Below are positions 3,341-14,251 of a stretch of 14,251 nt of DNA, piece after piece (the stretch's first letter is position 1; each line of letters opens with the position of its first letter). The notes beneath the pieces are model-generated. The model was not told the DNA's origin. It saw nothing but the letters and a program-made list of their open reading frames with translations, and searched no databases. Made by a program: the position numbers and the translations under genes. The stretch covers positions 1 through 14,251 of the forward strand of contig JADGJH010000569.1 of assembly GCA_027596945.1 (NCBI GenBank), written 5' to 3'. The DNA is from Physocladia obscura. Taxonomy: Eukaryota; Chytridiomycota; Chytridiomycetes; Chytridiales; Chytriomycetaceae.

Positions 3341-6300
3341 TCAAAACTTGTATCCAACTTTTTGTGCAAAAATTCGAAGCCCCTCATCAACACCACCAAA
3401 CTCATTTTCAGTAATAAGCCCAACATATCGAAAATTTTTACCTGACTTGATCACTGCCTCTGCTTCATCTATCAACAAAGAAGAAACTGGACTCCTTCGA
3501 CACATTCCTGACGACTTATTGTCAATCAATAACACAGGTGATGTGACAGGTGCCACTTGAAGCATCTGTGTGACTGTTTCATCTGAAGAGATTAAATTAA
3601 ATAGCAATTTAATAAATAAAGTGGAATCATAGAAATGAAAACAGTAAAGGGCTCACCAATAGTAACACCAATCAAAATTACAGCGTTCGATTTCTCCAAT
3701 GCTTTCAACGTCCTACCCCATCCACCACCAAGAGTGTGTTGAATCCACCAAGTTTCATCTTCCCCCGCCATCAGAATTCTTGGCGCCATCATTCCTTTAT
3801 TACAACCATCACGAGGACATAATATTCCGCTTATTTTTGAAGAAGTATTCTGTATACCAATGACGGAAGTTGCATTTGCATCCTTCAAATACGTTGGCAA
3901 CTGCATTGTCCAAAACAATTCATCCGAAACCTCAGCTTGAATTCCATGTAAACATTTTAAACATCGTGGAGATGCCGCAACGCTACCATACAATTCAATA
4001 ACTGGTGATTGAAGTTCCAATTGTTTGATCATCCCGTCAACTGTGGTAGTAAAAGTTGCGGAAAGAAGGTTTGCACTATCCAGTTCAACAAGAAGGCTGT
4101 GAAAAAGCGGTGTTATTTGCTTTTCGGTCGCTAATCTTGAATAAGTTTGATGAATTGATTGATAAAATGCCAGAATATCCTGATTAATGATACAACTTTA
4201 ATAAATGCAAGTAATTGAATTTTAAAAAACTCACAGATTCTGCTTTTGAAATTTCAACTAGTTTTGCACCATATTGAAACTTTTCGCGCTGAAAATTATG
4301 TGAATACGCTCGCTCGCCAATAACAACAACAATCCCATCGCCATCTTCTTCCTTTCTTTTAGCGTTGAGCCTTGTTCGCAAAGCTTGAACAAAGCCTTCC
4401 ACAGAAACATCTCCCATAAGAGGTTTTCTTCTATCATCTTGGGGAACTCTTAAATTTCTAAAAACGTCAGCAGCTACATTTTGTGCATCAAATATTTGTT
4501 GTTCAGTAGACACGAGCGACGAAAAATTAGCAGAATCAAGCGAAAACCTTCGGTTTCCATCAAACTCGAGCATTTTGAGAATAACATTACAGGTGTTTAC
4601 GTTTTCCGTAACACGGCCGATGATCAGATACTGATGGAACCAATCCAACGGAGTTCTTCCAAATGAATCTCCAGTACGTAGAGCTTCCTCACACGACCCT
4701 GTCTTGATTAAAACTTTCACAGTCTCCAAGAAATTATCCAAATTGAAGGAATGTGAACTATTTAAAACATATTTCGAAAACAACAGCGATGATAAACCTG
4801 ATGTATTAGCAGAATTTGGAGTAACAGAAGCAGTAATAGCATGGGCAGCCAAAACAGCAGTGTGGATGGGATACTGAGAAAAATCGTTCTGATGGTTTTC
4901 AACAGGTAGTGTTGTGCGGGAAAGAAAGTATGAAATAATTTCATGTGAATGCAAGTACGCAGCAAGATGGAACGGCGTATCGCCATAGAGAGTATTCGGC
5001 GTGCCAATTAAATCGTTTGATATTTTCTCACAAATGAGGCGAACAATTTCAAAATTGCCTGACAAAACAGCATGATGAAGAATAGTATTTCCGGTTGGAA
5101 ATGATATAAGCCGTGTATCTATTTAAGAGTTTAAATGTCAATAGTCGGGTTTTAGAAGATGTTTGGTCATTTCATATGTTTTCGCACAATTTTTTGTTTA
5201 CGTCACCTGAATTTGCATCCAATAACACATTGAAAATATTGATAAATCCCAGGCGAGCAGCAACAAGAAGGGGAGTCACGCGTTCAAAAACTTGAATACC
5301 ATTATCAATAGGCCCATTATTACTTTGAACATTAGCATTGGTGGTGAGGACGAACGAATCTGCGAACAAATTCAAAATTTCGGTCAAAGTGTGGGAATCA
5401 CGGTCACGGACAGTGACGATTGTCGATGATAGTGAGGTAGTAGAGGCAAGGGATTTTAGGGAGTGAGTTGAAGCGTAGTTTGCGTGGCGTTTTTTCGACA
5501 GATTAGTAGACAAAGAGCGTTCCAGAAGATTCTGACGCGTTTTTTCGACAATGGCGATGACGACCGACACAAAATTTGCGTTAATAGCATAAAATAGGGC
5601 CGATTTGTTTTGTATGTCGACATTAAAAACCGAGACTGCGGAGGATTCGAGCATAATGAGAGCGGCGGTGTCCGAATTGTTATAATTTATACAACACATC
5701 AGCGCGTCTTTGGCGTTACGGTCGACAGCAGCGGGATCAGCGTGCCGCTTGAGGAGCAGACGTATGGCATTGACGCTTTGCAGCGCAGCGGCGACCATTA
5801 GCGGCGTCTGAAGTGTCGTGGTGTTGCGCACCGACGCTAGGGCCAGTGCACGCAACGTGTCGCCCAGTACCAGTCGCATCATCGTCGTATTTCCACTGCG
5901 TACCAGGCGGTGCAGTACTGTAGCTCCGCTAGCATCGGTGGCAGTAAACAAGCCCAATCCCGCAAACCCAGTAGCGTACGATTCAAGCATACGAGCAGCT
6001 GTCTCATTGGACGCTAGGCATGCTGCCATATACAAAGTCTCGTTTTCGGCACTGTCAATATCACGTATTTGTAGTTGTATTCCTTTGTTGTTTTCAGCGC
6101 GTACATTATTCCTGCTCCCGTGAACGATTGGTAATGCCGAGGCGGAAGTGGATGTTTTCGCAATCACCTTAAACCGCCGGTTTACCTTCAGAAACAGCGC
6201 CTCAAATGCATCAATATTAAACTCCAATCTATTTCCTGTGAGCATTGCAAAGAGCCGTCTACTTACTTTTTTGAGTTGGGTAGAATAAACAAAAATTTAC

Positions 6301-6435
6301 TGACCGGATGTCTTGCTGATCCGAATCAGATAGAACCCTCTCCGGTGCCGCACCTGATCTTTGCTGTCTAAATGTCAGAGACGCTGCTGCCACACAAATC
6401 GCTGCAACTCCAAGCGCCATCATTTTTGACTTCAT
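3341..6435 (-). CDS. Ankyrin-repeat protein with degenerate class I sirtuin-like C-terminal domain
   Basis: Five exons: 6435-6305, 6258-5207, 5118-4235, 4179-3657, 3582-3341; 943 aa, in frame at every junction. Residues about 7-20 are hydrophobic (MALGVAAICVAAASL) after a basic start, so a signal anchor or targeting peptide is likely. Ankyrin-like repeats span about 80-560, for example TPLMVAAALQSVNAIRLLL, TPLLVAARLGFINIFNVLL and TPFHLAAYL. From about 655 a sirtuin fold can be traced: IVVVIGERAYS in the Rossmann position, FYQSI (694-698), TPLFHSLLVELD, TTTVDGM (733-739, for TQNID), IELYGS (750-755, for ELHGS), C762/C765 and C810/C815 as zinc ligands, PRILMAGE for PDIVFFGE, VILIGVTI for the GTSL strand, then SPVLLIDNK and a C-terminal block like that of SIRT2. 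The catalytic His is Tyr753 and the QN pair is Thr-Thr, so deacetylase activity is unlikely. Intron 1 uses donor GTCAGT, chosen because it alone keeps frame. Role unknown; a protein-binding scaffold is inferred. Confidence 0.8.
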
Positions 6436-10478: not shown

Positions 10479-10545
10479 AAAGGACTTTTGTGTCGGCATC
10501 TTTTTCTTTCATTTGTGGAAGTGATTTCAATTTGAGAAACAAGAG

Positions 10546-12975
10546 ATGCAGCTTGTTCGACTCTTGGTACTGTGTGCGATAGCGACGGCACAGGTGACAG
10601 TGGATATGACCAGCGCAAGTAAGCAAGCATAGATGCTAAGCTAATGCATTTGGCGTCACCCATGCGTTCGGTCATTTATACTAACATAATACTTCTGCTA
10701 TTGACTAAATCAACGGAACCATAACCCGCAATCCGTAATCCGCTGCTTCTGTTCTTTCTCGTGCTCTCACTCAAATCCAACCTGATCACATACTTTGCTT
10801 CGTTTCACGCAACCGCCAGCCGCCCTTGTTGCCGCTACAAAGGCTGCACTGCCAGCTCTGGCTCAGTTCTACGCCACTAACAACGAAGCCAATGGCGCGT
10901 GGACCGAAAGTATTGTACAGGTAAATATTTATTTCATGCCCTTCTTTCGTTCCTCTGTGTCTCACCTGCGTTGGTTTTTTCAGTGGCACGAATCGGGCTT
11001 GTACTGGGGGGTAAATACTGAATGCATGATGCTTTTCCGGATATTTGCTAAGCCGTAATTCGTATTTTTTCCTTTGGCTTTTTTTAGTTTTATTACCAGT
11101 ACTATAAGAACTCTGGCGACACCACGTACAACACTTGGGTGGATTCGCAGGTAAAACCCTCATTAAATTTTTTCCCGGCTTGTTCATTATGAAATCCAGA
11201 TGCAACTTGCTGTTGGAAGTAATGATGACTTTCTCGATGGAAACAGTGCCATTGATAATTTGTCGGGAAGATGGAATGACGATATTGGATGGTGGGCCCT
11301 CGGCATCATGACAGCTGCCGAAGCAACACCGTCTGGTATCATTGATCCACAGAATATTGATCCTGGATTCAACCCTACATATTTTTCTGTCGCCAATAAT
11401 ACTTTTTGGGAAATGTATATAGATTGGGACGATGTTTGTGGTGGTGGTATTTACTGGTATGCGATTATTTTCGTTGATATGATTCCAGAACTTACTTCGG
11501 CTTTTTTTCCTACAGGTCTCGAGACAGAACGACAGTTGTGGAAAACGATGCTTACTACAAGTCGTCTATTTCAAATGCGCAATTCATTGATTTGGGTGCA
11601 AGACTGTATGCAATTACGAATGATGCAAATATAAAAACTCTTGTTGATACTACATATCAATGGATGTTGTCGTCTGGGCTTGTTAGTTCGTCTACTTTCA
11701 CCGTTTTAGATGGTCTATACGCCGAAGGTTCGTCTTGCACGCTGAGCACTGCTGAATGGTCCTACCACTCTGGTGAACTTGTCTCGGGTCTCTCGGAAAT
11801 GTATAAAAACACTGGCGATACTACTTATTTGACTGCTGCTCACAACCATTTCAGTATGTTATTTTTTGTCATTTTGATTATCTGTACTCATTATTTTTCC
11901 TCTCCAAGACCATATTCAGTCGTATTTTACTGAAAATAATGTTCTTTACGATCCAAATCTGACTAGTGCAAACAAAGATCCAAGTGGATACTTATGGGCC
12001 GTCTATAAAGGCCTTGCTATTCTGCACTCTGTCACCACTGACTCAACCGTCAAGTCAGACATTGAAACTATTATGTATGCCTCCGCAACGGCCAATTTCC
12101 AAAAATGCAACTCGGAATGGTACTGCATTAGAAATTTGGCTGTTGGAACGACTGCAACAATGTCCAACGGTACAAATCCTCGTGACCAGTTTGAAACCGT
12201 TGCAATTTTGAACGCTCTCTCTGTTATGGCAGGTGCTTCTACCTCTGGACTTACTCAAAACACAACGACAGCCACAAATACTGACGAAACAACAGACAAT
12301 AGCGGCAGTATTACAAAGTATGCCGAAATTGGTGGTGGCGCTGCAGCCGGCGTCGTGGTTCTGGGACTTTTGGGATGTTGGTTCCGCAAGCGCGCTAGAG
12401 CAGCGGCAGCTGTAAAAGACAGCAACTTGTCATTGGAAATTTATGGTGACGCTGCAAGGAATGTGTCTAGCACTCCAAGCCCAAGTTTCAAGAATCAACA
12501 AGGGAGATTCACTCCCCAAAAACAGCCACTCTCATCAAACGGAAGTATCGAATCGAAGGGCCAGTTTTCTTCCAATGGGTTTGTCCCGCAGCAGCAGCAG
12601 CAGCAGCAGCGGCAGCAGTTTGGACAATTCCATCAACCACAGTACGGGCAACTGCAACAGTTCTCTTCTGCTCCTCCTCCACCACCGCCGGGTAGTTACG
12701 GTACTTCCCAACCTGGGCAATTTGGTACTCAACCACAATACGGAGTACCGCTGCAGTTCCAGCAGGGGCCGCCGTTAGCTGGTCAATATGGAATGCCGCC
12801 GCCTGGACCACCGGGTCAGTTTAGAATGCCACCGCCTGGACCACCGGGTCAGTTTGGAATGCCGCCTCCAGGACAGTATGGAGGAGAAGGTCTGTATGGA
12901 GCTGGTCCTATGCCGACGAATCAATATGCTGGTGGAGCGCCACAGTATGCGGGACGTCCACCGACTTCTGAGTAA
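10546..12975 (+). CDS. GH76 alpha-1,6-mannanase-like (Dfg5/Dcw1 type), membrane-anchored
   Basis: Seven exons: 10546-10618, 10820-10920, 10984-11010, 11088-11150, 11200-11456, 11516-11853, 11909-12975; 641 aa, frame kept throughout. MQLVRLLVLCAIATAQ is a signal peptide. The GH76 domain spans about 25-410: WHESGLYWGFYYQYYKNSGD, the catalytic Asp pair in RWNDDIGWWALG (D115, D116), CGGGIYW, YYKSSISNAQFIDLGARLY and LDGLYAEG. By family these cell-wall enzymes act on alpha-1,6-mannose backbones and are proposed to cross-link GPI-anchored mannoproteins to the wall. A Thr/Asn-rich stalk leads to a transmembrane helix about 426-444 (AAAGVVVLGLLGCWF), then RKRARA as stop-transfer. A tail of about 195 residues is Gln/Pro-rich with a polyQ run and MPPPGPPGQF repeats. 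Exon 3 is only 27 bp. The last intron needs an AAG acceptor (11908) because TCAG at 11919 leads to a stop. Yeast relatives are GPI-anchored, so a transmembrane anchor with a tail is a different design. Confidence 0.92.
12589..12618 (+). repeat. CAG microsatellite coding polyQ
   Basis: Seven CAG codons, one CGG, then two CAG codons in frame with the GH76 gene, coding Q7-R-Q2 in the cytoplasmic tail. Such pure triplet runs usually vary in length between strains. Confidence 0.9.
12791..12881 (+). repeat. 33-bp tandem repeat coding MPPPGPPGQF units
   Basis: Two near-identical 33-bp units start at 12791 and 12824 (11 residues each, MPPPGPPGQFR and MPPPGPPGQFG). A third, shortened unit starts at 12857 (MPPPGQYGG). 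The two full units differ at only a few bases, so the duplication is recent or kept homogeneous. In protein terms they are Pro-rich motifs that could bind SH3, WW or EVH1 domains; this is inference. Confidence 0.88.
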
Positions 12976-13800: not shown

Positions 13801-14251
13801 TCAAAGCTTCGACAATGAAAACTTTGTATGTTTTCCAAACGCAACCAATTTCCTATCACTTCCATCTCTTTCTTTCTTATATAGCGAAGCTTCCGCAAAC
13901 AGCAGCGATCGACCCGCGTTCTTTACGCAACAAACAATTTCGATAGTATCGCCTTCAGCCACACGGCCCACATAACTAATTGCTAGATCTGTTGACACGG
14001 AGGCGCGGTCGCCAAATTGTATTAACGCGAATGTCGTAGTTTCATCAATAATCTATAATGTTCGTTAATGAAATCGCGTTAATATGCGTCTGTTGTCACA
14101 TGGGAGGGAAAAAAAACCAGTGCCGTGGCGCCGCCATGCAACGAGCCCAAGCCGTTCAACAAGCCTTTAGATACGGGCAGTTCGAAAGTGACTGTGCGGG
14201 TGTCGAAGTTCACGTGTACGGCTTTCAGAGATGTGATGTTTCTCGAAAATC
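13801..14251 (-). CDS. Hotdog-fold acyl-CoA thioesterase (4HBT/PaaI, ACOT13-like), 5' end missing
   Basis: Two exons are visible: one from the right edge to 14118, and 14052-13801. They join in phase 0 over a 65-bp intron (donor GTTTTT, acceptor ATTATAG). The 127 visible residues read VNFDTRTVTFELPVS, then GSLHGGATAL and IIDETTTFALIQFGD, then STDLAISYVGRVAEGDTIEI and KLVAFGKHTKFSL. HGG followed by the conserved Asp of IIDETTT is the active-site pattern of this family. STDL.ISY, the Gly-Asp turn and the G.HTK end are also typical. By family it hydrolyses acyl-CoA thioesters, often in mitochondria. The first residues, including any targeting peptide, lie outside the window. It converges on the GH76 gene. 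Confidence 0.87.

Follow-up and report, generated by a model that had tools for sequence, protein, structure and literature searches.

An ankyrin-repeat protein of Physocladia obscura ending in a sirtuin-related domain without the catalytic histidine: a predicted membrane-tethered binding scaffold

The ankyrin gene and its neighbours

The window, that is, the whole 14,251-nucleotide stretch of Physocladia obscura DNA analysed here (contig JADGJH010000569.1), harbors on its minus strand, between positions 1554 and 7796, a row of three genes placed head to tail, which encode a Ctr copper transporter, an ankyrin-repeat protein with a sirtuin-related C-terminal domain (pseudo-sirtuin), and a BAR-SH3 protein. 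The gaps between them measured 34 and 46 bases, the first of which contained AATAAA, and the three genes possibly give rise to overlapping or shared transcripts.

The middle gene occupied positions 6435-3341 of the minus strand. Its frame had been described from the outset as open across five exons, and splicing of these indeed yielded a protein of 943 residues with no internal stop. The four introns, of 46, 88, 55, and 74 bases, were all of the GT-AG type. The features of the gene are as follows:

Exon 1, 6305..6435, minus strand: N-terminal hydrophobic segment (residues 6-22), then basic residues; predicted membrane anchor (gene model; hydropathy in three proteins)
Exon 2, 5207..6258, minus strand: bulk of the ankyrin repeats (Pfam Ank_2, E 9.3e-28 for the whole protein; gene model)
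Exon 3, 4235..5118, minus strand: final ankyrin repeats, linker, and first strand of the pseudo-sirtuin; GERA (4307-4318) where GAG is expected
Exon 4, 3657..4179, minus strand: TTTVD for TQNID; ELYGS, with Tyr753 (3988-3990) for the catalytic His; Cys762/765 and Cys810/815
Exon 5, 3341..3582, minus strand: C-terminal part of the pseudo-sirtuin, the last residues being GYKF
Pseudo-sirtuin span, 3341..4342, minus strand: residues 654-943, with two introns within (SIR2 E 1.5e-4 over residues 676-830; hhalign E 3e-8; shuffles)

The range 3341-5118, to which the ankyrin-sirtuin fusion had initially been assigned, coincided with exons 3-5, but only about 4342-3341 was related to sirtuins, the remainder comprising ankyrin repeats and the linker. 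The frame of the pseudo-sirtuin was open in none of 2000 nucleotide shuffles. The GC content at third codon positions was 43% over the first 575 codons of the gene and 29% in the pseudo-sirtuin, a contrast that may hint that the two halves of the gene differ in age or origin.

In the database, this gene is part of a single model, the P. obscura protein HK100_010358 (1620 aa), which brings together the Ctr copper transporter, the ankyrin pseudo-sirtuin, and BAR-SH3, and in which the acceptor of intron 1 lies 3 bases upstream of that used here, adding one Arg. This fused protein was rejected, since the Ctr frame lacks its last portion there and the ankyrin gene is missing both its start and its last residues, whereas the unspliced Ctr frame covered the Pfam model in its entirety (1-151 of 151). 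The fusion was also disfavoured by the related proteins of Obelidium and Siphonaria described below, in which a comparable hydrophobic segment stands at the start and neither a Ctr nor a BAR domain is listed, and by the BAR part having its own ATG (3294) following a stop. Judging from the reading frames, the deposited fusion is probably false, and the short gaps between the three frames would invite a gene predictor to merge them.

Other features were found in the same window. A gene for a GH76 glycosyl hydrolase lay at about 10545-12975 of the plus strand, where one of the two frames given matched Pfam, and inspection by eye showed in it a hydrophobic region and an extended tail rich in Gln, Pro, and Gly. 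The segment 9200-9700 had, also by eye, the appearance of a decayed transposase relic, for which Pfam returned nothing in the two frames tried. At the left end, a SAM domain was found on the minus strand (1-387; 23.8 bits, cut-off 23), and at the right end, a fragment of a 4HBT thioesterase on the same strand (13801-14052; 30.6 bits, cut-off 20.6).

Orthologues, ankyrin repeats, and the hydrophobic N-terminus

Two orthologues were recovered from searches in which 5480, at least 7999, and at least 7997 candidates were scored. The first, from Obelidium mucronatum (P0002, 626 aa), was found with the full protein (E 6.8e-33), and the second, from Siphonaria sp. JEL0065 (P0003, 861 aa, full length), with a two-row alignment (E 4.4e-76). 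The three fungi all belong to the Chytriomycetaceae, and further orthologues may exist. The Obelidium protein diverged from the family just past the first strand of the domain (residues 585-626), so that it is informative only as regards the hydrophobic N-terminus, the ankyrin part, and GERA; its divergent end may reflect an unspliced intron or annotation error, or a true truncation. Thus, the active site was covered by two sequences, both from a single family.

The ankyrin part was the most readily recognized portion of the protein, in which Ank_2 scored 97.1 bits in P. obscura and 95.2 bits in Siphonaria, above the curated cut-off. When defence-system models were compared with the whole Siphonaria protein, two matches were obtained, both inside the ankyrin part, and none of these models matched the P. 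obscura pseudo-sirtuin when the domain sequence alone was searched.

A feature absent from the original prediction, and common to the proteins of all three genera, was the hydrophobic N-terminus. The best 17-residue hydropathy near the start was 2.15 in P. obscura (residues 6-22), and 2.35 and 2.26 in the other two proteins, with basic residues coming next. Since the best 19-residue stretches elsewhere in the three proteins reached 1.95, 1.82, and 1.52, values not far below that of the start segment, its role as a membrane anchor is considered only likely. The positive-inside rule is used to orient hydrophobic segments preceding basic residues; when applied here, it suggests a signal anchor that would leave the ankyrin and sirtuin-related parts in the cytosol.

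Relation of the C-terminal domain to sirtuins and loss of active-site residues

The assignment of the C-terminal domain to the sirtuins depended on how it was searched. Against Pfam SIR2 (PF02146), the profile by which the proposal was to be checked, the C-terminal 336 residues alone gave an E-value of 1.5e-4, in line with a sirtuin-related domain, but the score of 22.2 bits did not reach the gathering cut-off of 24 bits, and the whole 943-residue protein returned no SIR2 line at E-values up to 1. The Siphonaria protein likewise stayed below this cut-off, with 19.4 bits (E 1.1e-3) for the domain alone and 17.1 for the whole protein. Bacterial sirtuin models produced three weak matches to the P. 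obscura domain, the best with an E-value of 0.0015, and the sequence searches against solved structures were also weak: the best E-value was 0.11 in one of them, and in another a sirtuin came first (0.084) and a non-sirtuin second (0.098).

A comparison at the profile level provided a stronger test. A canonical set of 37 sirtuins was assembled, composed of three from P. obscura itself and 34 bacterial ones passing the filter among 80 fetched loci; these were chosen by the presence of GAG and NID, not of HG. The three-row family alignment was matched to this set by hhalign with an E-value of 3e-8 and a probability of 95% over 220 collinear columns, in which Tyr753 was paired with the catalytic His of the canonical sirtuins. 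As controls, reversal of the alignment gave an E-value of 0.23, and among 100 shuffles of the columns the lowest was 0.0084. With the three own-genome sirtuins alone, the E-value was 2.5e-4 and the probability 43%, and a HMMER profile of the 37 sirtuins scored the P. obscura domain at 18.4 bits and the Siphonaria domain weakly, at 7.8 bits. Pairwise scores of the pseudo-sirtuin against the own-genome sirtuins were low. Altogether, as far as these comparisons go, the relation of the domain to sirtuins is clear when profiles are compared and weak for individual sequences, and the coexistence of ankyrin repeats and a sirtuin-related domain in one protein was borne out.

Regarding its origin, the best pairwise sirtuin match differed between the orthologues (L010 for P. 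obscura and L011 for Siphonaria), and since the two gave conflicting pairwise scores with the own-genome and the bacterial sirtuins, no class of origin is claimed, including the class I whose block order had been recognized in the domain. The position of an intron, nearly coincident by eye with one in the Hst2-like gene, was considered as a clue to this origin and set aside because the phase differs.

The residues involved in catalysis were replaced. The site of the catalytic His was occupied by Tyr in both proteins covering it (ELYGS; Tyr753 in P. obscura), while HG was present in 37 of the 37 canonical sirtuins compared. The place of TQNID read TTTVD (residues 733-737 in P. obscura) or TTTVE, again in both proteins covering the site. 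The cofactor loop GAG(I/V)S..PDFR was not encountered, and GERA was found in the place of GAG in all three proteins (residues 662-665 in P. obscura). The distance from GERA to the next aromatic pair was 34 and 32 residues, compared with 49 for the Hst2-like sirtuin of the same genome, the one sirtuin compared (15 and 17 fewer), indicating that this loop appears to be missing and not merely changed. The first strand of the domain was placed differently by hhalign and by eye, and neither placement showed GAG or PDFR. On the other hand, the four Cys (762/765 and 810/815), which correspond to the zinc-binding Cys of sirtuins and of which the second pair has the spacing C-x4-C, were kept in both proteins that covered them. 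The presence of Tyr753, TTTVD, and the two Cys pairs, and the lack of a GAG loop, were thus all as originally described.

The FGE, GTS, and ribose-Asn motifs are functional sites of sirtuins, FGE being linked to acetyl-lysine binding. Their places read AGE, GVT, and ID in P. obscura and KDQ, GAD, and VD in Siphonaria. A domain devoid of the GAG loop, the QN pair, and the catalytic His would not be expected to carry out NAD-dependent deacylation, as far as can be judged from its residues. Such losses are not general in this fungus, because three other sirtuins found in its assembly retain GAG, NID, and HG, one of them being the Hst2-like protein. A search of the whole assembly for paralogues of the domain, at E-values up to 10, returned only this locus, although it was insensitive and missed the other sirtuins of the genome too.

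The conservation of the domain was also considered. Between P. obscura and Siphonaria, 108 of 279 positions (39%) were identical in the pseudo-sirtuin and 124 of 394 (31%) in the ankyrin part. Identity rose to 54% (30/56) over residues 705-760, in which TTTV and ELYGS were identical. The higher identity in the domain than in the ankyrin part argues against decay, being the reverse of what would be seen in a decaying tail. Orthologues restoring His and QN would have pointed to a local defect; this did not occur, since the one orthologue covering the site, that of Siphonaria, displayed Tyr, TTTV, and the four Cys.

Interpretation and comparison with known systems

The reading that we favour, with a probability of about 0.6, is that of an ankyrin protein carrying a sirtuin-related C-terminal domain without the catalytic His and the NAD loop, for which the predicted role is that of a binding scaffold without enzymatic activity, held at a membrane by an N-terminal helix. 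The losses shared with Siphonaria make a membrane-tethered binding scaffold, and not an enzyme, the likely nature of the domain. The proposal that a catalytically dead, sirtuin-derived domain was kept by selection fits both these common losses and the identities of 39% and 31%. Mechanistically, the domain would still fold as a Rossmann and zinc module; the hydrophobic start and the basic residues would anchor the protein in the endoplasmic reticulum or the mitochondrial outer membrane, with the remainder in the cytosol; and partner proteins would be brought together at the membrane by the ankyrin solenoid and the surface of the dead sirtuin. A broader formulation is considered slightly better than even, namely that these proteins form a family of pseudo-sirtuins, anchored in membranes and conserved in chytrids, in which the NAD loop was lost and a natural His-to-Tyr change arose, as in laboratory-killed SIRT1, the domain having been retained as a scaffold or decoy that ends the ankyrin solenoid.

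The nearest rival to the scaffold, although unlikely, is a natural dominant negative that would compete with an active sirtuin, such as the Hst2-like one, by holding its substrates or partners. There is a precedent in SIRT1 H363Y, a laboratory His-to-Tyr allele that is catalytically inactive (PMC3464248, PMC1420676) and serves as a dominant negative (PMC1420676), and a candidate for such competition, the Hst2-like sirtuin, is present in the same genome. However, the FGE stretch reads KDQ in Siphonaria, which renders acetyl-lysine binding doubtful. Less probable still is an enzyme that continues to use NAD through an altered active site. The replacing motifs GERA, TTTV, and ELYGS were kept, as an active site might be, and PMC4518038 describes class M sirtuins (SirTM) that carry Gln for the catalytic His and are nevertheless active in ADP-ribosylation. 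Nonetheless, according to the same paper, these enzymes require a conserved Asn118, which is Thr in the pseudo-sirtuin; moreover, the domain has lost the GAG loop, and at the FGE and GTS places the residues of P. obscura and Siphonaria disagree.

The remaining explanations dispense with a dead sirtuin kept by selection, and both are considered very improbable. A different zinc and Rossmann fold that came to resemble sirtuins by convergence could account for the Pfam score under the cut-off and for the weak matches to solved structures, where a non-sirtuin scored about equally, but hardly for a collinear match that surpassed by far the best of the 100 shuffles (3e-8 against 0.0084). The least credible alternative is a decaying pseudogene or an artefact of the gene model, to which the differing deposited model, resembling a false fusion, and the contrasting third-position GC of the two gene halves would lend some weight. 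Against this stand the frame open over five exons, the full-length orthologue with the same substitutions, and the greater conservation of the domain relative to the ankyrin part.

Neither an ankyrin-sirtuin fusion of this type nor a pseudo-sirtuin of this kind was described among the matches listed in searches of open-licence papers, which do not extend to subscription journals. If true, a natural and conserved pseudo-sirtuin would bring the sirtuins into the range of folds from which pseudoenzymes have arisen and would allow tests of which tasks other than catalysis this fold can carry out.

With the SIR2 family (PF02146), the domain shares the order of blocks, the spacing around TTTVD and ELYGS, the four Cys, and the Rossmann-like strands VVVIG and VILIG, but it differs in having no GAG-PDFR cofactor loop, in the change of QN to TT and of the catalytic His to Tyr, and in scoring below the Pfam cut-off. 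It resembles the class M sirtuins in the replacement of the catalytic His and in the occurrence of fungal fusions, which involve a macrodomain there (PMC4518038), whereas the pseudo-sirtuin presents Tyr instead of Gln and Thr instead of Asn, and is joined to ankyrin repeats and a hydrophobic start in place of a macrodomain. The predicted topology of the P. obscura protein is like that of proteins held by a signal anchor in the endoplasmic reticulum or the outer mitochondrial membrane. Regarding the active site, SIRT1 H363Y bears the same His-to-Tyr change, but as a laboratory-made one, and in the solved-structure alignment the Sir2 chain of entry 2h4h also reads ELYG. This chain belongs to the Thermotoga enzyme, into which the His-to-Tyr mutation was introduced artificially, and it retains, as does SIRT1 H363Y, a NAD site that is otherwise intact, unlike that of the pseudo-sirtuin.
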